From Tubulanus polymorphus (lineage: Eukaryota; Nemertea; Palaeonemertea; Tubulaniformes; Tubulanidae), in contig NC_134033.1 in the NCBI RefSeq assembly GCF_964204645.1, forward strand, positions 9,894,231 through 9,958,230: a DNA stretch of 64,000 nt, read 5' to 3'. The translations under genes and the position numbers were made by a program. Below are positions 113-47,017 of this stretch, piece by piece. Position 1 is the stretch's first letter. The number at the start of each line of letters is the position of its first letter. The notes under the pieces were generated by a model that was not told where the DNA came from, ran no database searches, and saw only the letters and a program-made list of their open reading frames with translations.

Positions 113-3100
113 TTAATTACACACGTAATCAGTTAAATAGGTAGGGGGTCTACGTTGCCTTTCAGGTCCACTTAAATTTTGACTATCTGAAACGGATGTC
201 TCGTTAGCTACCGGTTCCGATATAGGCCGGTTTTCAACTGTATTATCAGAATCTACAGCCGGTTCAACGGTCGTTTCGTTGGTCTTTCTGAGATGGTGTC
301 TTGCGCGCCTGTACGTTTTATTGTCGCCAGTTTCGACAAGATAAGAGCGATTTCCGACGCGTTCGGTGACCGTCGCCTTTAAGTTTGTTCCATGCCCCGG
401 AAATGGTTTCATGCGAACAATATCACCTTCGTCTAACGGTTTAAGGTTCTTGGCCGATTGGTTGAAATATTCGGCCTGCTTACGTTTTTTCTCGGACCCG
501 TCTGATAAACTAATTTTCGGCGGTAATAGATTAGCCGTCATTGGCATCATAGTCTTGGTTCTTCTGTTCATAAACCTTTGGACCGGACTGACATTTAAGC
601 CCTGAGTGGGCGTGTTTCTTAAATCGAGTATCGCAAGATAGGGGTCTCGTTTCGCCTCATATGCTTTTTTAAGAAGTCTTTTCGCGGTCTTGACCGCCGA
701 CTCAGCCTGTCCATTAGACTTACTGTCATACGGGTTTATAGGACGATGCCGAATGTCCCAATCAATCATAAACTTACGGAATTCTTTCGAGGCAAATTGA
801 GGTCCATTATCGGAAATGATAATGTCCGGAATGCCATATCGCGCGAAATGAGCTTTAAGTTTTGCTATGACAGGAGTCGATTTAGTGGACTTGACCAACC
901 GATCTACCTCCCAAAAATTGCTGAAATAATCTACTGTTATTAGATAATCTTCCCCTTTCAAATTTAATAAGTCGACACCGATCTTCTCCCACGGTCGATT
1001 AGCTGGGGGAGTCTCGATCAGCATAGGCTCTTTGGACTGGGCCTGGTCATGCTCACGACATAAACTACACGACAACATATATTCGCGCATCTGGCCGTTC
1101 ATACCTGGCCAGTAGACCGATTCTCTGGCACGACATAAACAGGATTCGATGCCAAGATGTGAACTGTGAATTTTGTCTTTTATAATGTTATACATCGACT
1201 TGGGAATCACAGCGCGTTCCCCGCGAAAAATTATACCGTTCTGAATTGACAACTCATCTCTAAATGAGAAATATGGAGTAACTTCAGTAGGCACTGAACT
1301 TCTCTCATCTGGCCACCCTCTCAAAATAATTCCTTTCAATATCTGCATGGTATCATCTTTATCGGTTTCATCTCTAATCTCCGATAAACGCGCAGCGCTA
1401 ATTGGCAAATACCGAACCATATTGATACTGTCAAACTCCGCTGTCTCTGATCCAGAATCTAGGTATGCGCGAGACAAGGTGTCCGCGATGAACATCTTCG
1501 ACCCCGGAGTGAACTTTATCTCGACATCATATTTATAGACACGAAGTAACATAGCCTGCAAACGTTTAGGCGCGCGCGACAAAGGTTTTTTAACTATAGC
1601 CTCGATAGGTTTATGGTCACTTTCAACTGTAACCTTGCGGCCATATGTGTACGTATTAAATTTTTCTAAGCCGTAAACAATAGCAAGAGTTTCTTTTTCG
1701 ATCTGCGCGTAACGCGTTTCAGCGTCAGTTAATGCTCTGCTACTATAGGCGATTGGACGTCCTTCCTGCATCAGGGATGCGCCCAGACCAGATTGACTGC
1801 TGTCACACTGCAATGTTAGCTCTTTATTGGGATCATAATACGCCAAAACCGGAGTTTTCGTAACCAATTCTTTGACCTTGGCAAAGGCCGACTCTTGATC
1901 GGGACCCCAAGACCACTCAGTATCTTTACGCGTTAACTTCCTAAGCGGACCTAAAGCATCTGATAAATTAGGTAGAAACTTCGCGAGATAATTTACCATG
2001 CCGTTGATACGCTGTATGCCCGCCACGTCAGTGGGTGCCGGCATTTTCAAAATAGCTTCAATCTTACTTTGGTCCGCCTCTAGGCCGTTATCTGTTAGTT
2101 TATGACCAATAAATGGCACTCCTTTCTTAAACAATTCTAATTTTTCCAAGTTCAAAGCAATTTGTTTTTCTCTACATCTTTGCAAAAGAGCCCTTAATTT
2201 TTTGTTATGATCAGCTATGGCTTGTTCAATAGTTGTCCCTACTCCTACAAGCATAATATCGTCATGGATACAGTAGGTGCCCTCCAAGCCTTCGAGTGCT
2301 TGGTTTAAATGTTTCTGAAATATTTCACCAGATACACTGAGCCCAAATGGCAACCTGCACCATCTATACCTCCCATATGGAGTGTTGAAAGTAGTAAGTA
2401 AGCTCGATTCTTCGTCGAGGCGCAGATGCCAATACCCCGACTTAAGATCAAATTTACTGAAAACTTTCGCATCTTTCATGTCAGGTAAAATATCTTCCAG
2501 TACAGGTATGGGGTATCTTTCTCTCATTAAATATTTATTTAATTGCTGTGGGTCTAGACACAGTCTTACATCTCCCGACTTCTTCTCGGCAATAACAGGG
2601 CAATTTACCCACGGTGTAGGTTCGTCTACACTGGCTAATACACCATTGTTTACTAAACTGTCAATCTTCAATTTTACCCTATTCTTCAGGGCATGAGGTA
2701 TACGTCTAATAGGCATAACTGCCGGAACTGCATTTCGATCTACGTTCAAATGAACAACCCCTGGAAGTGTACCCACTTCTTTCCGAAAAACATCTTCATA
2801 CTCTGATAAAATAGAATTTACCTCAGGGGACTGACCTTCGATTTGATTAACTCTCAAAAAATTATTATTATTAACCGTTATCAACTGCATCAACTGTGCA
2901 GATTGAGACCCGATTATGGGTGTTAATCGTTCATTGACTACAATAAATTCTAATGAATATCGTCTCTTGTTATGCATGTTGACCACAGCTAGTCTAATTT
3001 TACCAACGGGGTTCAGAACACTATTGTTCCACATCTTGAGCTTCTTCGTTGTAGGCCGAATTTCCTTGATGTTCTTTACGTACTTAATCGGAATCAAATT

Positions 3101-4087
3101 TGCCGAAGCCCCCGAGTCAATTTGAAAACGGATCGATCGCCCTCCGATTGACATTTCAGCATAAATGTCATTTTTTACACAGTTCTTATCGGAATATACG
3201 TTTTGTATCGATTCGTACTCCGAGTCGTCGTCTGATTGCTCGATTCTGTTGACCTTTCGCCCCTTAGGTTGTTTACACACAGACGCGAAATGATTGCTCA
3301 ATCCGCAGTTGTTGCAGGTCTTTCCCCACGCTGAGCAAAATGCGCGATCACGTGGGTGTTGAGCGCCACAATAACGACAGTTCATTGGTTCTCCTCTCCC
3401 GCCGGAATTACGAGACCGATAATTCCTAGAAGCGGTTGTTTTGGCGCCACTAAAATTCTTCTTCGTCTGGTCGCTCCCATTGACCTTGTTAACAGTACAA
3501 CTAGCGTCTGCTGACATAGATTTCAATTGTCTGCTGGATGATTCTGCAGCTCGGCAAATATTGATACACGTAGACAAGTTTAACTCTTTCGTTTCGAGCA
3601 ACTTCTTCCGCACGTCACTATCATCTATACCAAGAACAATTCTATCTTTTATCAACGAATCAGCTAAATCACTAAAATCGCACGTTCGGGCCAGCGTCCT
3701 CAAATCTGAGACGTACTTATCCACTGACTCATCCGCCTTTTTATTCCTCGAATTAAATATGTAGCGTTCGTACGTAACGTTTATCTCGCCGACCGTAAAG
3801 TCATCAAACTTTTGAATTATCTTATCCACATCATTCTCGTCACCTGCATTTTCGAAATTCATTCCGTTATAAATCTTGAGAGCCTCCGTCCCGACCGAAT
3901 GCAGAAATAAAGCGGTACGGTACTCACCACTTTGCGCGCGTAAATTGCTTACGATGTTGTAAATGTCCCATTGCTGTTTCCATAGCTTCCAATTTTCCGC
4001 CACATTATCTCCCATTTCAAGCGGTTTTGGTGGATTCATCCCGGCAACGGGTCTCGGTGCGGGCGGCAACACGTTTTCGTTAGACAT
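113..4087 (-). CDS. Ty3/gypsy gag-pol polyprotein, intact ORF
   Basis: A single uninterrupted 1324-residue frame encodes a complete LTR-retrotransposon polyprotein that copies element RNA into DNA and integrates it. Visible domains in order: Gag; a zinc knuckle CX2CX4HX4C (258-271) after a second Cys/His cluster (237-251); an aspartic protease with DSGA (324-327); reverse transcriptase with FDLKSGYWHL, LPFG and the catalytic HDD (608-610); RNase H with acidic residues near 762 and 824; an integrase zinc finger (H974, H977, C1007, C1010); and the D1053, D1093, E1129 triad with D-to-E spacing of 35. The residue two before the RT Asp pair is Ile rather than the usual Tyr/Phe. Gag and Pol share one frame. 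The ATG is followed by a normal Gag N-terminus and lies about 100 bases downstream of a likely primer-binding site. No stop or frameshift suggests a young copy. Confidence 0.95.
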   Translation of the reverse strand: MSNENVLPPAPRPVAGMNPPKPLEMGDNVAENWKLWKQQWDIYNIVSNLRAQSGEYRTALFLHSVGTEALKIYNGMNFENAGDENDVDKIIQKFDDFTVGEINVTYERYIFNSRNKKADESVDKYVSDLRTLARTCDFSDLADSLIKDRIVLGIDDSDVRKKLLETKELNLSTCINICRAAESSSRQLKSMSADASCTVNKVNGSDQTKKNFSGAKTTASRNYRSRNSGGRGEPMNCRYCGAQHPRDRAFCSAWGKTCNNCGLSNHFASVCKQPKGRKVNRIEQSDDDSEYESIQNVYSDKNCVKNDIYAEMSIGGRSIRFQIDSGASANLIPIKYVKNIKEIRPTTKKLKMWNNSVLNPVGKIRLAVVNMHNKRRYSLEFIVVNERLTPIIGSQSAQLMQLITVNNNNFLRVNQIEGQSPEVNSILSEYEDVFRKEVGTLPGVVHLNVDRNAVPAVMPIRRIPHALKNRVKLKIDSLVNNGVLASVDEPTPWVNCPVIAEKKSGDVRLCLDPQQLNKYLMRERYPIPVLEDILPDMKDAKVFSKFDLKSGYWHLRLDEESSLLTTFNTPYGRYRWCRLPFGLSVSGEIFQKHLNQALEGLEGTYCIHDDIMLVGVGTTIEQAIADHNKKLRALLQRCREKQIALNLEKLELFKKGVPFIGHKLTDNGLEADQSKIEAILKMPAPTDVAGIQRINGMVNYLAKFLPNLSDALGPLRKLTRKDTEWSWGPDQESAFAKVKELVTKTPVLAYYDPNKELTLQCDSSQSGLGASLMQEGRPIAYSSRALTDAETRYAQIEKETLAIVYGLEKFNTYTYGRKVTVESDHKPIEAIVKKPLSRAPKRLQAMLLRVYKYDVEIKFTPGSKMFIADTLSRAYLDSGSETAEFDSINMVRYLPISAARLSEIRDETDKDDTMQILKGIILRGWPDERSSVPTEVTPYFSFRDELSIQNGIIFRGERAVIPKSMYNIIKDKIHSSHLGIESCLCRARESVYWPGMNGQMREYMLSCSLCREHDQAQSKEPMLIETPPANRPWEKIGVDLLNLKGEDYLITVDYFSNFWEVDRLVKSTKSTPVIAKLKAHFARYGIPDIIISDNGPQFASKEFRKFMIDWDIRHRPINPYDSKSNGQAESAVKTAKRLLKKAYEAKRDPYLAILDLRNTPTQGLNVSPVQRFMNRRTKTMMPMTANLLPPKISLSDGSEKKRKQAEYFNQSAKNLKPLDEGDIVRMKPFPGHGTNLKATVTERVGNRSYLVETGDNKTYRRARHHLRKTNETTVEPAVDSDNTVENRPISEPVANETSVSDSQNLSGPERQRRPPTYLTDYVCN

Positions 4088-4182
4088 GCTGTCTGTTCTC
4101 TGATAATCCTCAGTAAAGCAACAAAACTCGGATCAAACGTCCTCAAAACATTCACTGTGCCCTCGTTAGATCACTTAATTGT

Positions 4183-4411: not shown

Positions 4412-5129
4412 ATGTTAACGAATTTGAGTTTAAGTTTGGCTTACTTGTGACCTCTATGACAGTATTTCTTGTTATAACTTATTGCAATCACTGAAGTATC
4501 GCATATATTGATCCATATCCATGACAATATTTAAGTTCAATTATTGTTTGATATAACCTCAGTGTCTTCCTTTAACGATTTAGTTATTGATTGGTACTTT
4601 TCAGAGAGTGAGATCTGTCATATTTTTGCCAGGCCATAACGTTTATTTTACAGCTATTTGTTGTGGGTTTCCTTGCAAGATTTAGGTTTGTTTGCATATT
4701 TAGTAATCCTGATTGATGAAAAGTCCAGTTGTGAATATGCCTGGCAAATGGCAGCACTTTTTTAGTGGTCAGTTTGCTTTAAACTGAATAGCAATGTAGT
4801 AATTTGTAATAATTGTCTTCACCGATAGTTCTGGAAGCACAGGTTTGACAGATTTGAAAATTTTCTTGTAGTCCCTCTTGGTTCTTCTTGACATCAAAAT
4901 GAAGGCTGATGGTACTTGCTTGTTTTCTCCCTCACTGTTTTTTTAGAAAGGCATGAATTGAAAATAACTGTGTACCATGTTTCTGCTTTGTATAGAAAAC
5001 ATATCTGCAAATCATTTGCAAATATAACGTGGCACATTCCAATTGACTTTAATGTCATCACAGCAAAAGCTGCTGCCAATGAAATTTTTGTCAATTGGAA
5101 AATCACTGGTAGACAGTTCTAGTGGACAT
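4412..5129. other. Noncoding stretch, nothing recognised
   Basis: AT-rich DNA between the gypsy 5' end and the FLYWCH fragment. Small frames at 4894-5122 overlap on both strands and match nothing I know. They may be a decayed continuation of the minus-strand element at 5130-5900. Confidence 0.4.
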
Positions 5130-5453
5130 TTACTCTGTCGGTTGCTCTTTCACTTGCTGCATTGGGTGAGATAGTGTAGCACAGGGAACATCGACATCAA
5201 CACAAGTAACTATGGCTTCTTGTTCGATTTTGGCAGCACTTTTGAATAAACTGTTAACACTGCTTTCTGTGAATTCTCCATTCATTTCCGACACCGTTGC
5301 TGAGTATTGCTGCATCTTGTTTTTAACCGACCACCAACAGTATGTTTTCAGGTTTGTCTCTTTGATGGTGAACCCGTAGCCATTGTTGTCTGGTAGCTTT
5401 GCCTTTCCTCTCAGGGTAGAACCTTCCTCAATTTCAAATCGCAGCCCAGTCAT
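5130..5453 (-). pseudogene. FLYWCH-type zinc finger fragment, likely transposon-derived
   Basis: A 107-residue frame. Residues 14-60 follow the FLYWCH layout: a glycine/aromatic start (NGYGFTIKE), the aromatic-Cys-Trp core (TYCWWSVK), then a Lys/Gln stretch and SATVSEMNGEF. The terminal His pair is replaced by Ser/Asn, so metal binding is probably lost. FLYWCH domains are DNA-binding fingers often carried by MULE-type transposons; no transposase was found nearby. The frame continues, with shifts, into 5454-5900. I read it as a decayed element gene, not a host gene. Confidence 0.4.
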
Positions 5454-5900
5454 TTACAGTGACTCATCATTTGGACTTGAATCTTTAATCTAGTGTTCTG
5501 CAGTTTTGTCAGGTATCTCGAATGATGATGTAGACACAATAAGATTATTGGTTGTGGTTTCATAAGTTTTATTCTCAGTTTCTTGCTGTTTCTTTCCTTC
5601 TAGAGCGAGTTCTGATTGGCTTCCAGCTTGGTTATGTTTTCTTGGAGGTGGTTCGAGAACAGGGACAAAGTGGTTCAATGTCCATAACTTGCTTTCTATA
5701 CTTGTCTTTATATTTGCATTTGACCATATGGTAGGGATTGGTGCAGCTGCTTTTTTGATAATCTTGCTAGAAAAGTTTGGTGAAGTTTTGCTATCAGGAA
5801 AACTTCTTTTCCATTTACTGCGGGATACAACGATTTTACATTACGATTCAAAACTGTAACTGCAGCCATACTAACGAGTAGCTTCCAATTAGGCATGCAT
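5454..5900 (-). pseudogene. Degenerate coding remnant upstream of the FLYWCH fragment
   Basis: Two consecutive minus-strand frames (5708-5896 and 5490-5678) read as one protein only with a frameshift between them. They are rich in Ser, Pro, Gln and Thr and point toward the FLYWCH frame. I do not recognise a domain. The most economical reading is the N-terminal region of the same decayed gene. Confidence 0.25.
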
Positions 5901-6353
5901 CTAGGGCGACTTCATAATGATGGGGACACTGTCTAGACTTGGGATGTACTGCTTGAGGTACCAGGTTTCAAGTTTGCAAGTTCTGTGGTTATTCGTACTC
6001 TCAGTGCATTCGTGGCTGGGCAAGAACTGGCTTCAATCTTACCAATTTTAACTTCCGTGAGTTGAGGCAGTACGGGTGATAACGGTTTCGCCCTTGCCTA
6101 GGTGGAAGCCTAACCTGTAAGGGCAAGATAGATTTATGTTTACATATTCTTAATTACTTCAGCCAATTTTGATAAACAATAGCTTGACTAACCAATTGAG
6201 TCAAAACAAGTAAGTGCCATTAATCCTTACTTGGGGATTTGAGTATTGTTGAGTATTTCTGTAAATAGAAGATGATGAATACATTGATATTGGGTTATTG
6301 GGCTATTTTACTGCTTGTTAGAACTAACCTCAAGTATTTTCATTATTTTCACA

Positions 6354-6389
<36 letters not shown>

Positions 6390-7470
6390 ATATGATAGAT
6401 AGGCCGCCTTGTAAATGGGCCAATCTTAGAATTAAGAAATACTTTATAAAAACTTCCCGGCTTGTGGATGCTACTGGAACAGTAGCTGGCACTGGTCCAA
6501 GCAAATTTGTGCCGGATTGGACGTTGGCCTAACAGAAAAACTAATTTTGGGTAATGTATCAGCGTCAGGAATCATGTCAGCAGTTGCCGAAGTAGACCCA
6601 ACATTTCTTGCCACAGCTCTCGAAGTTGCAACAGGCCTAGTACTAGCAGTAGTAGTACCGGTTAGGCCTACAACGTCAACGGTAGATCTAATGAATACTG
6701 GTAATACTAGTAGTGCCAGTTAGATTATTTCTTAGTATCGCTTCGCTAAGTGAATCTAACGATCCATGAATGGTACTGATTGCCTCAATGGCATTATTAA
6801 CTCTTTGTCGCCTGGGGGGTGCGGCCGCTAAAACACGTTGACTGCCTGAGTAGTTCTTTTGTTTTACTTAATTGCGGAAACTACCAATAGTAAAATGCTC
6901 ATAATTCGGTAACCAGTGGCTCAATCTGGATGAATGAGGTACCAAATGAATGGTTATTTCATTGCCAATCATTTAAGCTATTAATGTTCATGATTAGGGA
7001 TACAGGGGCTTACCTAAAATCTGGAATTCCCATGAAAAAATTTACATACTCTGAAAATATTTTTAAGCATGGAATTTCGAGGATTAATTTCTTATTTTGT
7101 GCACTTAACAAAGCTAGACATGCGCAAATATGTTAACAAATGACTATTTGTGGATTTGATTATCATCTCATGAGTCGTACGTACTGTGTTGCTATTTTGC
7201 TTACACACCGTCCAAATATAATGTTTCAACTTGAAAATTAGTTCTGATACTTTCTAATGTAAACATTGACTTTGGTATCCTCGGAAAATATTCACTCTTG
7301 AATGCAACAAGACTTCAAACTAATTTTCCTTGCTAATTTCTTCATTTTCTTAGTGTAAGCTTCGAAAAGTTTTGCTCTTTATTCACTCTTGCCTGTAACT
7401 ATAGTAACAAGCAGCTGGGGTGCAGCGAGTCAGCGATGCTCATGGTGAGTTTGACCACTTACAGCTGTCA
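5901..7470. other. Noncoding stretch
   Basis: No coding evidence. It contains a (TA)n run at about 6355-6388. Plus-strand frames at 6517-6723 are low-complexity Ala/Val/Thr and show no domain. I see no element ends. Confidence 0.4.
6355..6388. repeat. (TA)n microsatellite
   Basis: About 17 uninterrupted TA units. Confidence 0.95.
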
Positions 7471-9290
7471 GTATCAATTAAATTGTTGTTGATACTGGCT
7501 CTTTGAGAGTGGAAATGCCGCGATCATAACCACTGGGATAGACCTTACTTTGTATCACACCTTTGTTGATGTACTTGGCATCTAGATCGAGTGGCATGGT
7601 CTTGGCTGTGGAGCATAGTCCAGTTGCCAGTTGAAGCGAATATGTCCATCCATCAGTTTCACTGGGATGCTGAATGATCCAGTGCGGCGGTAATTCCATT
7701 CGCCGACGAGCTCGGTTGACAAGATTTCACGGAACACACGAAGAGATTTTGTGTCAGCCGGTGGTGTTTTCTTCTGGTACAAGATGTAGGCATTAGTGAT
7801 GCACACATCTATAACATACAAGAATACTTTCAAGGGCCATTTCAGACCCTTCATGTGCCTCTTGTAAGTTAGAATCTTCCTATCAGCCAGGTCTAACCCG
7901 CCCATGAACTGATTGTACCACTTGATGATAAGGGGGTAATGTACGTTGACCTTTGCCCATACATTTGCTACTTTTGCATTTCTTTCTGTAGTGAGCACAT
8001 CATCACCTATTGGTAATGATGACAGAAGGGAGACTTTTTTGTTGTCCTGCTAGGTCACACACACGACCTCACATGTCTCACTTTTCAGAAAGGCATGGTC
8101 GCCACGTCCTTTTACAATGGCACTTTTTTTTCCAACAATAACATTCGGTCCACCACGTTTAGCGCGCAGGGTTCCACACATCTGCCATTTACGGTTATAG
8201 AGCATAATAGCTAGCTCATAACTTGTGTACTAATTATCCGTATATATTTGATAGCCAAGGTCATGGTAGGGTTCCAATGTTTTCATAACAGTAGTCCTAA
8301 TTTTTTTCCCTGCTTCAACCGTCTTGTCAGATTGAGCAAGATCCATGTTAGCAATATACCCAGAGTCTGCTTCAGCTAGCATGTAAACTTTTAGTCCAAA
8401 CCGGATTGGTTTGTTTTTGATGTAATGACGCCAGGCGTCCACCCTTTTGATTTGATCATAGACTCGGCGATAGATAATTCGCGCTCGACTTGATATACAT
8501 CCCTGAATGATGGCACCATTTTGTCAAAAAAGTTTCTAACTTAGTAATAGATGTCATAATTTGGACCATTCCTGTCAGGGGCATTGTTCTCATCCATAAA
8601 ATGGAGATATCTCAATATCTGGCAGAAGCGATCACGTGGAAATACATCTGCGATTCCCGGACACCAGGTGAGAAGATGCCGCTTACTCCACATTTTACTT
8701 AAGTCACCCCTTATTTGCATTAGCCCCATGGTCACAATACAACCAAGGAAACTTCTTAGTTCATTTACAGGGAGGGGTTTCCATGCCATTTTGTGTTTCT
8801 CTGGATCGTCAGCAAACTTTGCAGTATAGTTCCGGTTTGTCTCTCTTACGATATGCGCATAAACTTCGTCAGTGAAAAAAAGTTAAAAAAGTTCGACCAC
8901 AGTTTCATGTACAGCCAGATCAATTTAAGGTCCCGTATTTGGAACCCTAAACCTCATTTCTGGAGGGACAGTAATGTTATTTGTCCAACCAAGATCACAT
9001 AAATCATCCTCAATTTGAATCCTTTCACCTAATGTAACATCTTCATCATCTGGGGCAGGGTCCAGGGCTGGGTCTGGTTCACCATCATCACCGCCAGGGG
9101 GCGCTTGGTTATCACTGGCAGGGTCAGTGTTATCATTAACAACAGCTTGATCATGTTCTAAGTCAATATCAGACCCATTCTCGCTACTACTAGTACTTTC
9201 AGAATCAGAAACGTCGTCACTTCCACCTTCAAAATCACTTTCATCACCTGCCGATTCCTCGGATGAACTACTCTCACTCTCGGGCTCTAA
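7470..9290 (-). pseudogene. piggyBac-type transposase, decayed
   Basis: Reads on the minus strand from an acidic Ser/Glu/Asp N-terminus (9290-9030) into a transposase core. Landmarks: ELRSFLGCIVTMGL (about 8740), RFGLKVYMLAEADSGY with a DDE-type Asp (about 8360), a YTDN block followed at once by a stop (about 8230), GTLRAKRGG (about 8165), KSAIVKGRGDHAF (about 8110), and YNQFMGGLDLADR (about 7910), which is the family signature. In-frame stops occur near 8928, 8892 and 8226, and there are frame changes near 8440 and 8540. The C-terminal Cys-rich finger is missing. PiggyBac enzymes cut and paste at TTAA; this copy cannot make a full enzyme. It is a different lineage from the copy at 21.7-23.1 kb. 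Confidence 0.85.
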
Positions 9291-10559: not shown

Positions 10560-13128
10560 GTAACCCTCAACAACTATCCCAGAACCAACCGGGAAGTTTT
10601 GGGTTTTCTTCAGAAATACTCTGAATGCACTCGCTTTCTTGGCCTATGGCATAAGGAATATCTCCGTCGGCTGACAGAAAGACAAAGTTCCCTTACCACA
10701 GTAAATGTTGCCGCCAAATTTGGTCAAGAAGTCGTTCCCCAGAAGGCACTTTTGTGTCAAGTCATCAGTAATTACCATTGATGTGGTGAAGGTGACCGAT
10801 CTTAACAGTGACATATGCTGCCCCCCTAATTGACGTCTTGTCCATTTGCTATAGTAAGTGCCCCATGGACAGGTTTCAACTCAGTGTGTTGTCCTCTCGG
10901 ACGACGTCCAGGAGGACTGATGTTTCTGTTTTGTTTTTTACAATGGCATGGCAATAGAGCCCCGTGTCATGAAGCTTAACATGTCAAATATTTACCGTAG
11001 GTGGCCTCACCGTATCTGGGGGCTACACAAACCTCAGCGTTTTACCCACCGTAGTAGGCAATGGAGAAAATTCGGGAGCGTCGGGTCTTAAACTAGGCAT
11101 CACTTTATTCATGTCTACTTTGCTAGGGTTGGTTGACGCACTACGTGAGTTTGAACCTTTTTGAGGTGACGTTGGTACAGTGGTGGAAACATTTCTAGCC
11201 TTGCTGTCTGGTCTTTGGCGCCAATCACCATCCGTATCCGGTGACATTCTTTTTGCTGGAGGAATATACTTTAGTATGTCAGCTGGGCCTACCACCCTCG
11301 GAAATCCCATTGGTCCATTTCCCCGCTGACCTTAGGGGCAATTCTTTGCATAGTGGCCTACATCACCACACATGCGGCACTTTGTCTGAGGGCATTGGTT
11401 TGCCATATGACCTGGTGAATTACGCCGGTAACAGATGACTGGTGCCGGGTTATGTGAGTTACGTGAAATGGATTTGCATCTCTCAACCCGTGTGGACAGA
11501 TTCATCATCATCTTCATCCTTTCTTTCATTTGCGATGCGATTTGGGAGATGGCGTCATCTTTTTGTTGAACTTGGTGCACCTGGGCTCTAGACTTGGTTG
11601 ACCCCTGTGTCAGCTTTCTCGCTGTCTCCAGCGTCCTAGCCCCATTTATAGCATATGACAGGGTTGCGGCATAAATCTGCTGTTTTGCAGATGGGGCTAA
11701 GTTTAACCCCTTGAGGAACTGGTTCTTCCCCATTTCCTCCTGCATCTGATAATGCACATTCGTGTATGCATTTTTGGACAGTTCAGCCAGCTGGTCAGCG
11801 AAGCCTTCGAAGCTCTCCACCTGGTTCTGGTCGTGTCTCTTGAGCTGCATCTTGTAATCGTCGCAAGTTTAAGTGTGATGAAAATGCCCCATCAGCAAAG
11901 TACAAAATTCGTCGTATTTAAAGGCCCATTGGTATGAGCAGTAGTTAACCGGGTAGTAAGCACTTGAGATGGGCCGTCCCACTAGCTACACTTACATGTT
12001 GATGATGTTTACAGTGAGTAAGGGTGGCTCACAACTGTAACTGTAGAGGTCACACACTGTAATATCTGACAAATTCATAAATTTTCATATAAAGTTCTGA
12101 GGTAATTTTAAATGGTGCAGTCTCATTGGGGATGAAAATCTGAAGCTTGTGATCATTTTCTGTTAGAAAAGGACCAAGATTAAAGAATTTGGCAAAATTT
12201 TGAGATTTTTAAAAATTATCAATTTTTATCCGATTTTGATGAAATTTTGGCATAACACTGAAGGTAGATAGCTTAACAAGTGTATGAAATTTCAGACTGA
12301 TTCCTTGATCGGGAAAAAGTTTTTTATAGTGAGATTTTGGTACTATGAAGTAGCCTATATTTTTGTTTATGTGTAGTGATGATCTAGGGTATCATGTTAC
12401 GGTTACTGTGCCATGCAAGCTGTGCTGATTCACTGGATAACTCCTCCCTTTACGTCATTCAAAGATTCAAATTGTGAAGAAAATACCAACGAAATTGCTT
12501 AATTACTCAAAGAGGAGGGCCTAAAACATAATTTCGACTGCAGAAATGAATATATTATACATTAATACATACGTCTGACAAAAAGGAGGATCCAAATCGG
12601 ATAACTGACAGAGAAAATAGGAGAATTCCAGTTTCAACCGTTGGAGCTCCTCACTGCTCCACAGGTTCAAAGATACTGCCATGTCTGACATTGATTGGGC
12701 TTTTATACTGCCAGTGGGCCTTTAAGTTCTCTCGGCAGTCACATGTTGGAAATGGCCTGGTAGGCCTCATGATCTAGTCGCATCAGAAGATGCAACTTCC
12801 TCTCCTCCCAGAAGTTTTTTCGACAGCTCATGTTGGCCAGATCAGCATTCGTGTCGAATCACTTGAGCCACACACGAAAATTAAGCCCTTTTGTATATGA
12901 CTTTGGGGCAGGGATATTGTGTGTGTCACGTTTGACTCGATTAGTTGATCTCCCTAACCTCTTAATAAAGTGTCTGAATTCTCGTGACATATCTTCTTCG
13001 TCGCCAGAGCTCTGCGCGTCTGGCTTCTGATCAGCCAGTATTTCCCGGCCCGATAACTTCGGGTCCTTATCAGGCCTCCGACTAGCTATTTACTCCTCAA
13101 CCAATCTCATCAACTCTGTGTCACTCAT
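10560..13128 (-). pseudogene. Ty3/gypsy gag-protease remnant interrupted by a MITE
   Basis: Minus-strand Gag starts at an ATG near 13128 (MSDTELMRLVEE) and runs through NIPAPKSYTKGLNFRVWLK (about 12880) to LDHEAYQ (about 12755). A MITE then occupies 11922-12721. Gag resumes as KYDEFCTLLMGHFHH and YKMQLKRHDQ (about 11830), ending in two zinc knuckles near 11400-11335 (CX2CX4HX4C clearest in CRMCGDVGHYAKNC). Downstream are a degraded protease start LHDTGLYCHAIV (about 10960) and MVITDDLTQKCLLGNDF (about 10740). Several stops and shifts are present, and RT, RNase H and integrase are absent. It belongs to the same Gag family as the remnants at 18.2 and 23.1-23.5 kb. Confidence 0.8.
11922..12721. 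mobile_element. 800 bp TTAA MITE inserted in gypsy gag
   Basis: Flanked by TTAA at 11918-11921 and 12722-12725. Terminal inverted repeats start AGGCCCATTGGTA on one side and AGGCCCACTGGCA on the other. It has no coding capacity. Almost its whole length matches, in reverse orientation, the outer parts of the larger copy at 44841-47017. TTAA targets are used by both the Kolobok and piggyBac superfamilies; AGG termini fit Kolobok-type elements better. Confidence 0.85.
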
Positions 13129-38741: not shown

Positions 38742-39322
38742 AGTACAGTTTTCTACTAAGTATTTTCAGGTCACAAGAAATATTGATTCTACCAGACAGA
38801 AAATACAGTGTTCATCTTCTTACTGCTATAACAGTTTGAATATTTATTCATGATAAATAAATACATTCAATGAAAAAAACTTCTTTCATTTTGACATAGC
38901 TTCATTTAAAACGATGTATTCATATATGCGCGCTCATAGCAGCGCTTAATACACTAGGCTATATATAGCGTGTGACTCACACTACTGTATCACTGTATGG
39001 TAGTGTATTTTACCTGAGTGTGTGTGTGTAACAGTCTATTGATTAAAGGGTAACTGACAGATATTTTATTCTGGCATAATTTCCTTTGAAAAAATATATA
39101 GAATACGGATTTGTAAAGGTTTTTTGCTCTAAAAGTCATAGATCTATTAAAAATAGTACTTTAGTAACTGCATTTTCTTGCGGTGTGTTGAACTAGTTTC
39201 CGTAAACAAACATCGGCAATTTCCGGAATTCTCAAGTGCGTGACGTCACTACATGTACCAGGAAGTCTTTTGTCTCAGCGTTCATCTATACAAATGATTA
39301 TTTACATGTTTACTTTTCCAAA

Positions 39323-42300
39323 ATGGGACTTCGCTGTGTCCCTTATGGGTGCAGTCATGGCAGTGCTGACAAAACAAGTACATTCTACTGGCCAAGTGAT
39401 GATAAGACGAGGGCCATGTGGACGAAATTTGTATGCCAGAAGCGTTTAAACTGGACAGGGCCGACCCGGTATTCGGTCTTATGTCGGTATCATTTTGAAG
39501 AAACAGCTTGTGCAAATAAGATGATGTTTGACGCAAATTTCGCGAAAAAGTAAGCTTCATAATAAAACCCTTGAAATATAAATGAATAAATCCAGCCCAT
39601 ATGACTGGAACCTCCTGATTTAGGAGTATAGTATAGGATTTGGATGATACTGAAGATTTATTATTTTGATGAGATGGTCCCCGGACAACCTGGCCTGTAA
39701 AAAGCTATAATAGCGCTTTCATCATATGCAGGCATCGTACTACAAAAAGGGACAATTTCACAATAATAAATCTATGAATTACTGAGTGAAAAGTATCTTT
39801 ATCTTATAATAATAGACTACTCCATTTATTGAAAACAAGATAAACATAGCTGTCCTAATAGGTCATAGATAGCACAGGCCACAAATCAAAATGAATATCA
39901 AAATGCAACATATAATATCATTATGAGAGCTTCGCCAAATGAACTGATTTCTGAAGAAAATGTTTTATTTATTCAGGTAACTGCTAAAGTCAGGAGCTGT
40001 ACCAACAATTCATATGCCAGTCCTGCCAAGTCAATTAAACTCAGCTGACGAAACGCTTTTTTCACCCCCCAGACCAAAGGGCAGGGCTGCATATGAAAAA
40101 AGAGAAAGAAAAAGAATATTTAACAATGTGGCGAACCCTCAAAAAGCCTCAGCTGTAATTCCCGATGATGAATCTTCGTTTCAAGACCCGGACTGCCTAG
40201 TTGAGTCCAACATTGCCGCCAAATCTAAAGAAATTGGCATACAAAGTGCACCAGATTGTGTGTCAAAAGGTGAGTATCTTTTTCAGTAGTGCCTTTTTCA
40301 TTGTTGATACTGGTTTTTCACAGAGCAAAAGTTTAATTATTGATCTTTTGATAAATTCAGCTATTCAGACGCTTAAGACACCAGCAAAACCGAAAGTAGT
40401 AGTAAGGTACAAAACAAAACCTGTTTATGTATTCAAAAAAGTATGCCAAACCTCACGGGGGGTTCAGATAACTCCTGCAACAAAAAGTAAGCACTGTATT
40501 TAGGAAATATTTTCAATATAATCAATGATTGACTAATTTCTTATCAGATTTGATCACAATCCTATATCAATACTTATAATGAAAAAGTAAAAAAACTTCA
40601 TTTAGGCCTATAGACTATTTTAAAGTTTTCAACCATCCATTTCAGCGATTGCCACAGAGGTAAATATGAAGAGGAAAGGTCGGCCCCTTGGAAGCAGCAG
40701 GAAGACCTTTGTTGTTGATAGCAGTTCGTCTGAGGATAATGATTCTGATGATGAATACATTCCATCTGAATCTGACTCGGGTAGTGATAATAACTATGAT
40801 TCTGATGAAGAAAATATTATTTTTGATGAAATGAGGTAACTTTTTTATGAGTATGTCTCAGGTAATGCTTATTGCTGATGATTACTAGTGCCACCCTACA
40901 ACGATCTATCTATCCAATTTTCAGAGTTTATTTCGAAATTTTCTTACTCAAGCGTCAAATCTTGATTCAGTAATTATCGTCAAAACAACACATTTATGAA
41001 AGAAAAAAACCTTCTGAGGAAACTGAAATTCCTAGGTCCTTTCCAGAGCATAATTCAATTTGATTTTCTTCGCTCATTTCTTATAGGGCGGTCCGGGTCA
41101 GAGATGACAGCCAGCTAGATTATGGGAAACAAGCTAAAGTAATCATTTTCGAGCATAAACTATTTGAACTTTTCCGTCATTGTAATTCTTGCGGTGGTTA
41201 TAACAAGATAGAGAAAAGAACCAAAGACACATTACTAGTTGTTCAAACAACATGCCAGTTGTGCTGGAAACAGAGTAGTTGGCAGAACCAGGATTTCATT
41301 GCAGGGAAACCAGTTTTGAATATTTTGATAAGTGCGATGATCTTGCTTACTGGAAACTGGCCAACAAAATCTATACGGTTGTTCAAGTAAGTCACCACAG
41401 ATGTGAACTTCTGATATTGTTAAATATTCAAAATTGTGTCCTAAATTCATTTAGGCCTAATATCCTCTGTTTCGATAGTTGAAAATTGATAGTGGGAACA
41501 TAATTTTTTTTCCAGGTTGCTAAATATTGCCATTCATTCAACGAGATCGTTTTCCGCTACCAACAAAATTTCTCTCATGGAGCAATTAACCGGGTTTGGG
41601 AAGTCAGCAGAAAAACAATTTTGGATGGTTTAAATGGTGAGCGATTACTCGGTGGTGATGGGAGATGCGACTCCATGGGACACTCTGCCAAATTTGGGAG
41701 TTACTCCATCATGGACATCGAGGCGAAGAAAGTTGTTTCACTGCAACTAGTGCAGGTAGATATACTGACGTAAAAGTTTTCAGATTGAAGTTGTGAGTTA
41801 AAATCTATTTTTTTAATAGCCATTGATAAAAAATGCCATATTGTGCAATTCCTTTCTAGTCAAATGAAGTTAAAACCTCAAATGCCATGGAGTTGGAGGG
41901 CCTAAAACGCTGCACAACAGAATTAGGGAATATACCGGTAAAGGCATTTATATCAGATATGCATTTGCAGATTGGAAAATGGATAAGGACAGTATGGAAA
42001 GTTAGTCACTATTATGACTGCTGGCACGTTGTCAAAAGTAAGTTAAAAAAATCTTTGCATAAATGTCTGTATAAATTATAAATGCAAAAATACAAATTTG
42101 ACTCAAATCTATGATTTTCAAAACTATTTGATTGAATTGATAGATCAGTTTCGAAAATTGCGCATAGAATTGAGTCAAAATGTCAAATACCCTCTTAGTT
42201 TTTCTTCACATTTTGGGTCTTTCAGCAATCACTTTTTATATCGTTGGATAGCTTGAAAAATCTAATAATCTATAATTTCAGGTATAACAAAAAAGTTAGA

Positions 42301-43298
42301 GAAATTAGCGAAGACCAAAGCCTTTGTGGACATTCAAGACTGGGTGAAATCATTAAAATATCATCTATACTGGTGTGTTTCGTCTTCCCCGAAAGACGAT
42401 AAGGAATCAATCAAGAAAAAATGGCTCTCAGCTGTGGAACATGTTCAGGGGGTACACGTCAATTGTCAACACAAACCTTATGTGGCTCAGAAAAAGTGGT
42501 TGTTACCAGGTATTTAATTGAAAACCATGTACTAGATAGAATAGTTCTATACCCAATCCTGATTAAGAAAAAAATGTGGAATAAATCTATTAATTTAATC
42601 GTCTAGGTACGCCAGCAGGTGACAAGATTGAAGAAGTTTTGAAAGGAACAAGATTAGTGAACAAGGTCACCAAAATGTCACCATATGGACAGACAAGCCG
42701 ATTAGAATGTTTACATTCTGTCTTCAACCATTTTGCCCCGAAAATGCTTCAGTTTTCATACAGAGGACTCCTCTCAAGGTCAGGCAAAAGCTCAAAACTG
42801 AAATATGCTATTAATTCTATTCTAATATGCTATTAACATTTTTTAATATCATTCTAGGCTCCACATTGCAGCAATGCATTTCAATGAAAACAGCTCCAGG
42901 ATGCAAAAACTAAAAAAGATGGAACTGGTCGTGTGTCATTGATATACCCAAAATATAAGAAACGTCATGTGCTTCGATTTTTGCTAAATGATGCAACTTA
43001 TGGTAAGAAATCCATATTAGATTTGCACTGACTTCTGCAGTTAAATGATTCAAAGATAACTTTGTCACTTAAGGTGTCTTAATGTCAATTGAATAGCATA
43101 TTTTAAATCAGTATTCTATTTTCTTCAGATTATGTCAATGATTGTTTGAATGAAATCATAGGAGATATCAAAAAGAAACAACATACTAAAAAAAATATTG
43201 TTAGAGCTCCTCAAAGCCTGACCAGTGGTCGAGAACGAGTTTCAAAGGAAGAGGCATTGGAACTGCATCGTAGTAGATTTGTAAAGAATATGAAATGA
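39323..43298 (+). CDS. THAP-domain Kolobok-type transposase, 11 exons, lesioned
   Basis: Exons by GT-AG and phase: 39323-39549, 39977-40269, 40361-40486, 40646-40835, 41087-41386, 41516-41755, 41860-42037, 42282-42509, 42607-42778, 42858-43002, 43129-43298. Exon 1 is a THAP zinc finger (CVPYGC, spaced Trp, LCRYHF; C2CH). Exon 2 has SGAVPTIHMP. Exon 4 has an AT-hook-like KRKGRPLGS and an acidic Ser tail. Exon 5 has CQLCWKQSSW. The likely DDE residues are in GGDGRCDSMGHSAKFG (exon 6), ISDMHLQIGKW (exon 7) and SRLECLHSVFNHFAPKM (exon 9). The exon 1-2 join gives an in-frame TAA, and frame shifts occur inside exon 6 (about 41560) and exon 10 (about 42903). This copy is probably inactive. Confidence 0.85.
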
Positions 43299-43403
43299 GT
43301 TGAAAATGAAATGCAGAAAGATGAAAAATTTTTATTTTGTGATAAAATTTCATATAGAAAATTTAATACTGAGGTTATTTAACTAAACGAAATGCTATGG
43401 CAA

Positions 43404-44616
43404 TCAGTCTTCTTTTTCTTCTTCTAACGCTGGCCATCGGAAACCTTTGTACAAATCCTCATCCCCATCTTCAGAAGGAAAATGAGCCCGGATGCAGGAA
43501 ACGACACAGGACGGCAAAATAACACGATTTTTTCTGCCACAGTATCCCAAACACCATCGGGTAAATTGTCGATAGGCTTGTAGAAAACTCTGCGACAGTC
43601 GGGCCCTTAAACGGGCGCACCAAAGACCAACAACACACACACGTATATCGCAGATACAAAAATGACATAGAATTTATTCCCAATACTGTATTTATATAAG
43701 GTACAAATAATGTGAGTAATAAACCGTGAACTAACTCGACCATAAACCGTAACAACAGGATATACAGATAAGCTTGCTTACAATATTCAACAAGGCTATG
43801 TGTCTACACTTCTCTTCGATGGGTCCTTCAAACGCTTTATTTCCATATTGTTGTTTGAATGTTAACCAGGCTACCTGCAACGCCCATCTATCTGTACAAA
43901 CAGAGGCAAATGCATTAGTTTCAGTAATGCATTTAGGAACGGCCTCGTGGTGTTCAAATTCCAAAATTTCTGCCAATTTTTGAGTGACCTCTGGACTCTC
44001 CAGGTAACAGCAACATTCTGGTTCTGTGGGCAACACCTGGCAGTGAGTACACGAACACCTTAAAATAAAAACAATTATTGCGAAAATTAGACTTGGGTTC
44101 TAGAAAGTGTCCATAAGTTCAGCTCGGCCCTAACCTTATAGATTTCTACTGACAAGAAAATAACAAGCAACCCAGTACGGACACAGTACACGACTACGTT
44201 ACAATGCTATGAAAATTTATTTTTGGTCTTATTGTTATTGAATTGCATGGCATGCATCAATGATAAAAAAACAGGGTAAGTTTCTATCAGGGTTGGTTAT
44301 TTTAACCATAAAATGTGCATTATCAAAAATGCATTTATATATAAAGATACAAACACATATTAGCAAATATAAAACCCACCATTCGTGTAAATTATCCAGG
44401 TTCAGCCTATTGAGTGTCGGGATTGTTCGACGGAACAATGGATTCATTTGTCTCATCTGGCTCCGGTTCGTATAGATACGGCCCAATGACTTCTTCATTT
44501 TCTGAATCTCCAGATGTTGAAGACATGATATCTGACACATCAGAGTTGCTTGTTGAACTATCAGATGAATAATCTGACGGACTGGTGTTCGAGTTCGAGT
44601 TATCAGTAGACGCCAT
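43404..44616 (-). CDS. P2X7 ballast-domain protein carried by the transposon, 3 exons
   Basis: Exon 1 (44616-44380) starts MASTDNSNSNTSPSDYSSD, Ser/Asp/Glu-rich, reaching GPYLYEPEPDE. Exon 2 (44058-43782) gives WCSCTHC with the preceding donor base, then LPTEPECCCYLE, KCITETNAFASVCTDRWALQ and FKQQYGN. Exon 3 (43589-43404) gives YRQFTRWCLGY, VILPSCVVSCIRAHFPSE and LYKGFRWP. This is the Cys-rich Zn/nucleotide-binding cytoplasmic domain of P2X7 receptors (WCxCxxC, CC, CIT, LPSC, IRxxFP, YxGF), without channel helices. Exons 2 and 3 join in phase 0. In exon 1 the acidic frame meets a stop near 44407, and the frame entering exon 2 is another one, so a shift lies near 44410-44440. Function unknown. 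Confidence 0.85.
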
Positions 44617-44840
44617 GCTGGTTCGATGTTGTTATTCATGCTGTGACGTCAGCATGACACGTGGTTAATTCGCACGTGTACAGTCGGAAATATGTAAACA
44701 AAGGCGACCGCTTTTATATGATAATTGAGCACACCGAGTTCAAATACAATTTTTTTTTCTTAAAACTTCTTATGTAGTTTCTATATGATTTTAGACATCT
44801 AAAAATACCAGATTGTAATTATCTGTCAGTTACCCTTTAA

Positions 44841-47017
44841 AGGCCCACTGGCAGTATAAAAGCCCAATCAATGTCAGACATGGCAGTATCTTTGAACCTG
44901 TGGAGCAGTGAGGAACTCCAACGGTTGAAACTGGAATACTCCTATTTTCTCTGTCAGTTATCCGATTTGGATCCTCCTTTTTGTCAGACATATGTATTAA
45001 TGTATAATATATTCATTTCTGCAGTCAAAATTATGTTTTAGGCCCTCCTCTTTGAGTGATAGCACAGCGCACCTAAAACGTCATCAGCTCATGCATATTA
45101 ATGAGCTCATCCATTGGCAAACCAGAAGTCAGGCAAGCACTCGTGTGACTGACTCAATTGTATTGAAACTGAATAGAGAATGATCCCCCAATAGCAATCA
45201 ATTAAGATTTGTGAAAATAATCAACCTAGGGTGAAATTTATTGGTGAATTTAGTTAATATGATAGCTTGCCTTTAGAGAAGTAGCTGGAATGCCGTGGCC
45301 TGAAAACAGGAGGAAATAGCCGATCTCTTCAGCAGTAAGTAGCTTTTGTTTGTGTTCTGTCTAAACACTGATGCTGTGTTTGTTCAAACATTAGGCCATT
45401 TAATTAAGCGTCTCATTAAGTCTCAATTATTTATTTAATGGTAGATCAGCTAGGATTAATAAGGGATTTTTCATGTTTGCTTAACTTTTGATATTGTAAA
45501 GTCTTTTAGAGCTTACTTTAAATTCCAAATAGGCCTAGCACTATAATCAATAATCATGTCCTAAAATGTATTTCAATTTGTAGGCCCAGCAAAAGAAAGC
45601 GAAGTGACTAAATTTATAAAATCTTAACCTTGGATATTTTCAGATGAAAGGAAGCAAGAGAATTTTAAAAACCAATCAACAGACGAAATTGGAAAAGCTG
45701 CAACGAGTAGCTGGTCAAACCAACTTTGATTTTGTAAACGCCTGATTAATTTACCCTTACAACAATAAGATTAACAGACACTTTTTGAATCTGCATTGAT
45801 AATCGAAAATTCTAATAACTGTGTAAATCTTAATAATGATTTTTCTCCCCACAATTAACTCATATCCAAATTCCATAATTGCAAATTGGTTTAACTCAAC
45901 ACAAGATTTGTCCCTTTGATCCTCTGTTCCATTCTTATGTTATCTCACTATATTACTTGTAGTCATTCAACTTGTATTCAATTTGTTTTGATTTTAGTAT
46001 CCTCTAGATTGTCTCTGTAATACTATTTTTAAGATTAACACGTATCATTAATTAGTTTGCTCTTCTTTAGCTTTTAACTTTTTCTTTGATTTGTGTATCA
46101 TTTCTGATTACTTTGTCTCAAAAGAATATTGAAATATTGAATAAACTACTTCCTAAAAGAAAGATTTTATGACTTGTATTATTTTTTCGTTATTATTGTG
46201 GGATTCTTTTTATATTACTCTTTATCCATCGACACCGGCGTTGGCCTTAAAACTTTGCCCATTGAGATTGACTTAGGAAAACGAACGAAAGTTACACTTC
46301 ATATCCTCCCTATCTGGATACCTGTTGTCGCAATCTAGTGCCTTTAACAACATTGCTTCTTGTAAACCATACTTGATAAAAATATAAACCCAATTCATCG
46401 ACAGTAACTAAAAATAGATCAGGTGCGCTGCGCTATTAAGCAATTTCGTTGGTATTTTCTTCACAATTTGAATCTTTGAATGACGTAAAGGGAGGAGTTA
46501 TCCAGTGAATCAGTGTAGCTTGCACGGCACAGTAACAGTAACATGATACCCTAGGCCATCACTACACATAAACAAAAATATAGGCTAATTCATAGTACCT
46601 AAATCTCACTACAAAAATCTTTTTTCCCGATCAAGGAATCAGTCTGAAATTGCATAAACTTGTTAAGCTTTATACCTTCAGTGTTATGCCAAAATTTCAT
46701 CAAAATCGGATAAAAATTGATAGTTTTTAAAAATCTCAAAATTTCGCCAAATTCTTTAATCTTGGTCCTTTTCTTACAGAAAATGATCACAAGCTTCAGA
46801 TTTTCACCCCCAATAAGACTGCACCATTTAAAATTACCTCAGAACTTTATATGAAAATTTATGAATTTGTCAGATATTACAGTGTGTGACCTCTACAGTT
46901 ACAGTTGTGAGCCACCCTTACTCACTGTAAACATCATCAACATGTAAGTGTAGCTAGTGGGACGGCCCATCTCAAGTGCTTACCACCCGGTTAACTACTG
47001 CTCATACCAATGGGCCT
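44841..47017. mobile_element. 2.2 kb copy of the TTAA MITE family, with an insertion
   Basis: Flanked by TTAA at 44837-44840 (shared with the Kolobok element) and 47018-47021. Terminal repeats are AGGCCCACTGGCA and AGGCCCATTGGTA. The outer 220 and 580 bases match the 800 bp copy at 11922-12721 in reverse orientation. The extra 1.37 kb is a separate TA-flanked insertion. Confidence 0.85.
45062..46433. mobile_element. TA-flanked element nested in the TTAA MITE
   Basis: Termini GCACAGCGCACCT and the complement of AGGTGCGCTGCGC form 13 bp inverted repeats with one mismatch, flanked by TA at 45060-45061 and 46434-46435. The shorter MITE copy lacks it and shows an undisrupted junction there. TA targets suggest a Tc1/mariner-type mover. 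No transposase is readable; a 33-residue frame (45644-45745) follows an acceptor-like CAG, and AATAAA lies near 46140. Confidence 0.7.

Follow-up and report, generated by a model that had tools for sequence, protein, structure and literature searches.

The window, a 64,000-nucleotide stretch of the genome of the nemertean Tubulanus polymorphus (RefSeq assembly GCF_964204645.1, contig NC_134033.1, positions 9,894,231 to 9,958,230 of the forward strand), contains a 5.8-kb DNA transposon at window positions 39047-44836. We have little doubt that it is a decayed cut-and-paste element of the Kol0 lineage of Kolobok, with a second gene, KolX, that encodes a ballast domain of the type found in the P2X7 receptor. 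The link between ballast domains and Kolobok was itself published in 2022 by Kojima and Bao, who describe KolX, the second protein of Kol0 elements, as adopting the P2X7 ballast fold (PMC9587614). The present element is a new Kol0 family; the accessible portions of that paper report Kol0 from vertebrates, annelids, cnidarians, and sponges, and do not name nemerteans. To that work we add a genome-wide count, the dead state of the window copy, and a testable reading of KolX.

Ends and genes of the element

Kolobok elements are reported to duplicate TTAA at the target and to have 5'-RR...YY-3' ends (PMC9587614). The element begins with AG, ends with CT, and is bordered by TTAA at 39043-39046 and 44837-44840. 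Its terminal inverted repeats (TIRs) are perfect over 17 bp, with AGGGTAACTGACAGATA occurring exactly at 39047-39063 (plus strand) and 44820-44836 (minus strand); if TTAA is included, the inverted repeat extends to 24 nt at 96% identity. When up to three mismatches were allowed, AGGGTAACTGACAGATA matched the window four times, against 0.29 expected, and four matches were reached in 0/100 shuffles. The remaining two matches, at 12598 and 44948, have three mismatches each. Between the TIRs lie two spliced, convergent genes, i.e., a transposase gene on the plus strand (39323-43301, 11 exons, GT-AG at every intron) and a two-exon ballast gene on the minus strand (44616-44380 and 44058-43401). The features are as follows:

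39043..44840, no strand: whole insertion, the element at 39047-44836 plus the TTAA duplication on each side
39047..39063, plus: left TIR, AGGGTAACTGACAGATA, with the 5'-AG end of the Kolobok RR rule
39323-39549, plus: transposase exon 1, THAP DNA-binding domain (PF05485, 2.2e-7 on 39206-39553)
39977-40269, plus: transposase exon 2, premature stop at its start
40361-40486, plus: transposase exon 3
40646-40835, plus: transposase exon 4
40927..41097, no strand: extra stretch of ~171 bp in intron 4, missing in copies L039, L044, L045, and L040
41102-41386, plus: transposase exon 5
41516-41755, plus: transposase exon 6, frame lost here
41860-42037, plus: transposase exon 7
42282-42509, plus: transposase exon 8
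42607-42778, plus: transposase exon 9
41516..42778, plus: DDE core, exons 6-9 (motifs by eye; Kolobok-like relatives)
42858-43002, plus: transposase exon 10, frame lost again
43129-43301, plus: transposase exon 11
43401..44058, minus: ballast (KolX) exon 2, CSCTHC...LPSC...CIRAHFP...YKGF, split by an insert (PF20478, 8.1e-9, 3' piece)
43579..43792, no strand: 214-bp repeat in ballast exon 2, TG...CA ends (junctions; other genome copies)
44380..44616, minus: ballast (KolX) exon 1, acidic Ser-rich N-terminus ending HEW, frameshifted (copy comparison)
44820..44836, minus: right TIR, perfect inverted copy of the left

Among the reported features of Kolobok transposases are a THAP domain and an H2CH zinc finger (PMC6004289). 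In addition to the THAP match, the DDE core could be read by eye in exons 6-9. GDGRCDS supplies D1, FISDMHL D2, and LECLHS E, and DCWH is the C/DxxH signature; D1 and D2 are separated by 64 residues, and D2 and E by 135, with the three acidic residues assigned by eye. The core matched the Mutator profile PF20700 at 3.9e-4, which is below that profile's cut-off. In the THAP domain the AVPTIF box reads AVPTIH, and H2CH residues between D2 and E were noticed by eye alone. The second gene encodes a Cys-rich domain of the P2X7 type without channel helices. The exon junction (...HEW + CSCTHC) restores the WCxCxxC motif, the P2RX7_C profile (PF20478) matched the intact ballast exon 2 of copy L045 at 1.7e-12, the structure model matched the P2X7 fold, and the Cys cluster is conserved. 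The channel domain which, joined to the ballast, defines a P2X7 receptor is missing. No fold beside P2X7 stood out among the structure matches listed, and no His-Me nuclease was found among the chains listed, which excludes nothing.

The original prediction, made from the letters alone, had proposed a TTAA-flanked, TIR-bounded unit with two spliced, convergent genes, encoding a Kolobok-type THAP/DDE transposase and a P2X7 ballast domain without channel helices. Each of these claims was borne out, and what the prediction overlooked is that both genes of the window copy are broken. Little weighs against our identification, apart from the following points. The assignment to Kol0 is based on KolX and on motifs rather than on a tree, and the models of both genes come from splice signals and copy comparison, not from transcripts. 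The structure model has low quality in the Cys-rich N-terminus, and the Foldseek matches had modest E-values (best 1.7e-3, TM 0.45 by query).

Kol0 elements with KolX are alike in TTAA duplication, 5'-RR ends, a C/DxxH DDE transposase, and a ballast second gene (PMC9587614), while in the nemertean family all inspected copies have lesions. KolobokP likewise encodes its transposase on one strand and, downstream, a second protein on the other (PMC9587614), but that protein is a His-Me nuclease rather than a ballast domain. Membership in KolobokP was rejected, as it needs terminal direct repeats of ~450 or 660 bp and none longer than 28 nt was found in 39000-44900. Zebrafish Nanor and other ballast-only (ZCD) proteins likewise consist of a lone ballast domain with a short N-terminus (PMC7016195); Nanor, compared by description only, is regarded as a domesticated host gene (PMC9587614), whereas the present gene lies inside a transposon.

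Matches to the joined flanks of the element end at or next to TTAA, i.e., the repeats beside the element stop exactly there, the left one ending and the right one starting, so that several TTAA-bounded repeats come together at the insertion point. The right flanking repeat has a further, 220-bp copy at window 12502-12721. The joined flanks gave no uninterrupted copy of an empty target site among the 40 matches listed (the best 40 of 224 candidates scored).

Ballast genes and transposases across the genome

The exact TIR occurs eight times in the genome and bounds two elements at both ends. As the original prediction would have it, both genes lie inside each of these (2/2). Using ballast protein P0001 as the tblastn query, we obtained 99 ballast-like matches, which merged into 72 clusters, and the best 150 of 185 DDE matches formed 57 clusters. 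Among the DDE matches listed, a DDE cluster lay within 10 kb of 48 of the 72 ballast clusters, and within 4 kb of 45 of them; ~0.4% of the genome lies within such distance of a DDE cluster. Convergent orientation is common to all 48 near pairs, which come from many families, and 47 of the 57 DDE clusters take part in them. The PF20478 profile gave 51 matches in the genome, all above the cut-off, and none in 14 control genomes. Most ballast genes of the T. polymorphus genome are thus shown to sit convergent beside a Kolobok transposase. The predicted residence of ballast genes in transposons was correct and already published, as was the predicted route by which a P2X4-like gene could gain the domain (PMC9587614).

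The expected proximity held for those 48 clusters and failed for the other 24, which have no listed DDE match within 10 kb and count against the identification given above. These may be relics, partners of transposases too diverged for the query or unlisted, or host genes. In the one unpaired cluster that was inspected of the 24, L072 (C7:3964500-3972500), an open KolX-like exon pair (4661-5140 and 5418-5918, minus strand; P2RX7_C 4.6e-8) lies between exons of a GART-like purine-synthesis gene, on the same strand. The GART-like domains are GARS_A (6.6e-44), AIRS_C (5.7e-5), and Formyl_trans_N (5.5e-8). Neither a transposase match nor a TTAA-flanked TIR pair was found within these 8 kb, and the H547 equivalent is D. 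The exons may be an intron relic or a co-opted exon.

According to Kojima and Bao, P2X7 originated when a P2X4-like gene fused with KolX, Nanor is a likely domesticated KolX, and animal ballast-only proteins had earlier not been recognised as part of Kolobok elements (PMC9587614). The reverse, in which the ballast originated with P2X7 and Kolobok took it over from a host gene instead of a host taking over KolX, is very improbable. P2X channel matches (PF00864) occur in the genome only at C2:1.71 Mb and C2:28.14 Mb, and the listed ballast matches on C2 span 10.17-18.48 Mb; among the ballast matches listed, none is near either channel locus, and the window's contig has no P2X channel match. Moreover, ballast-only proteins are reported from sponges on, and ballast joined to P2X in vertebrates only (Rump 2020, PMC7016195; the accessible parts of that paper make no mention of transposons or transposition). 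That the ballast gene is a host gene which landed in or beside the transposon by chance would suit the 24 unpaired clusters, one of them inside a purine-synthesis gene, but is the least credible reading, given that both elements with two exact TIRs contain both genes, that the near pairs are convergent without exception, and that published Kol0 elements from other animals are arranged alike (PMC9587614). A host-gene origin is contradicted by the genome-wide pairing counts, and counts over one whole nemertean genome support the ballast domain belonging to Kolobok transposons. A scan of viral contigs with an alignment of 30 proteins gave 35 pattern stretches, none of which was confirmed by tblastn as a ballast gene.

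KolX and DDE distances were correlated over 14 element pairs (r = 0.777, reached in 0/10000 permutations), and one family accounts, by near copies, for six of those 14 elements. When each family was represented by a single element (eight elements), r was -0.01 and 0.05, and with seven elements it was -0.05. Since the value of 0.777 comes from near copies, the predicted co-inheritance of KolX and transposase is, on these sequence distances, shown within families only; between families the distances gave no correlation (r ~0). The transposase of locus L068/L069 (C3:15207739-15212144) is distant from those of the elements at C10:8.87 and C3:16.31 Mb (pN 0.31 and 0.32), but its ballast exon closely resembles theirs (0.148 and 0.11). 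Such a discrepancy suggests either an exchange of modules among Kolobok families or a locus that is chimeric.

Among nine elements, 33 KolX pairs (the three closest excluded) had 0.24-0.39 replacement differences per site and 0.72-0.97 silent ones. Transposase pairs show a like pattern, with silent exceeding replacement differences in 36/36 comparisons for each gene; the transposase sequences of C10_8.86 and C10_8.81 include some intron translation and are noisy. Ratios of dN to dS were not used because silent sites were saturated in 30 of the 36 KolX pairs. Judged from these differences, and without a reliable ratio, the pattern shows both proteins to be under constraint.

Decay of the window copy and its relatives

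In the window copy, the transposase has a stop just past the THAP exon and loses its frame in exons 6 and 10, ballast exon 1 is frameshifted, and ballast exon 2 is interrupted by the 214-bp repeat. By its reading frames this copy is dead, as neither full protein can be made any more. The 214-bp repeat occurs at a minimum of 15 other places listed in the genome, one of them partial (79%), and some same-strand pairs lie ~5.8 kb apart, as expected of long terminal repeats (LTRs). The insert is likely a solo LTR, with AGGCT (5 bp) as its probable target duplication. The ~171-bp stretch in intron 4 has one further place in the genome (C11).

Three further long copies, L039, L044, and L045, are ~98% identical and have both genes present, all with lesions. 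In L039, ballast exon 1 is open, ballast exon 2 has a deletion, and the transposase has a stop; in L044 and L045, ballast exon 2 is open, and the right end of the element and the start of exon 1 are missing. Since L044 (C4:14.68 Mb) and L045 (C8:7.71 Mb) have non-element flanks in common on both sides (~340 bp on the left, more on the right), one was probably copied from the other's larger segment. It looks as though the Kolobok element had been carried along by a larger segment that was mobile or duplicated. A fourth copy, L040 (C2:13.03 Mb), breaks off after the first part of the element and runs into an open frame (6760-7998, minus strand) with DNA_pol_B_2 (6.3e-13) and Endonuclease_7 (1.5e-5) domains, which we take to be possibly a Polinton-like or viral insertion. 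Elsewhere in the window, the minus strand of 113-4132 holds an open retrotransposon polyprotein of 1339 aa with reverse transcriptase, RNase H, and integrase domains.

A possible role for KolX

As in its family, the transposase would bind the element ends through THAP, cut with the DDE site, and integrate at TTAA by cut-and-paste. For KolX, the accessible open-licence literature yielded neither a role nor a guanine-nucleotide proposal. The ballast of rat P2X7 has nanomolar affinity for GDP and GTP (PMC9248971), R546, H547, R574, R578, and K583 being the residues that contact GDP, and the question whether ballast-only proteins bind GDP was already raised by Rump 2020 (PMC7016195). When residues were equated by sequence alignment, three of these contacts were found to be kept in 30 KolX-type proteins (R546 in 29/30, H547 in 30/30, and R578 in 29/30), with the R546 and H547 equivalents lying within a near-invariant RHxAYR block. 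Cys-cluster columns 43, 54, 111, and 115 are conserved in 29, 29, 30, and 30 of the 30.

A precedent for nucleotide use exists in the P element, whose transposase depends on GTP to pair the ends, to cleave, and to carry out strand transfer, and binds it in a domain inserted into the DDE core (PMC7776569). Like the present element, it combines THAP with a DDE core, and its superfamily and Kolobok have the C/DxxH signature in common (PMC9587614); dependence on guanine nucleotides is a possible further likeness. The GTP-binding domain, however, is built into the P-element transposase. A P-type insertion is probably absent from the T. polymorphus core, because D2 and E are 135 residues apart, compared with 227 between D303 and E531 of the P element (PMC7776569). 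We tentatively propose, as a possibility with the odds against it, that KolX could be a soluble protein that assists the transposase as a transposition cofactor, by means of a Zn-stabilised fold and a conserved guanine-nucleotide pocket. It is unlikely, by this analogy, that KolX would go as far as supplying a guanine-nucleotide function in trans, i.e., as a separate-protein counterpart of the P-element insertion domain.

Against such a role, the KolX-type proteins differ from P2X7 (rat 6U9V), apart from lacking the channel, in that the R574 equivalent is V in 29/30 and K583 is kept in 1/30. In addition, the 30 proteins were gathered for their similarity to a single query, a choice that itself favours conservation, and KolX and DDE distances are uncorrelated when one element per family is taken. 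A respectable alternative, though one we would not call probable, is that KolX uses its Zn-Cys cluster to bind DNA or protein and so regulates the element, as a repressor, an end-choice factor, or a targeting factor. On this view it has no nucleotide role in catalysis, and the guanine pocket is structural or was a later gain in P2X7. The cluster cysteines, being as conserved as the pocket, and the absence of two of the five GDP contacts are consistent with this; the near-invariant RHxAYR block, however, is more than a Zn site of structural function alone would require. Among folds other than P2X7, no DNA-binding one stood out for KolX, which proves nothing either way.

If KolX is such a guanine-nucleotide cofactor acting in trans, the nucleotide pocket of an ion channel, P2X7, would be a relic of DNA transposition chemistry, and the guanine-nucleotide role would also account for the GDP site of P2X7. 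The finding points to transposition as the process in which to seek the original job of the ballast domain.

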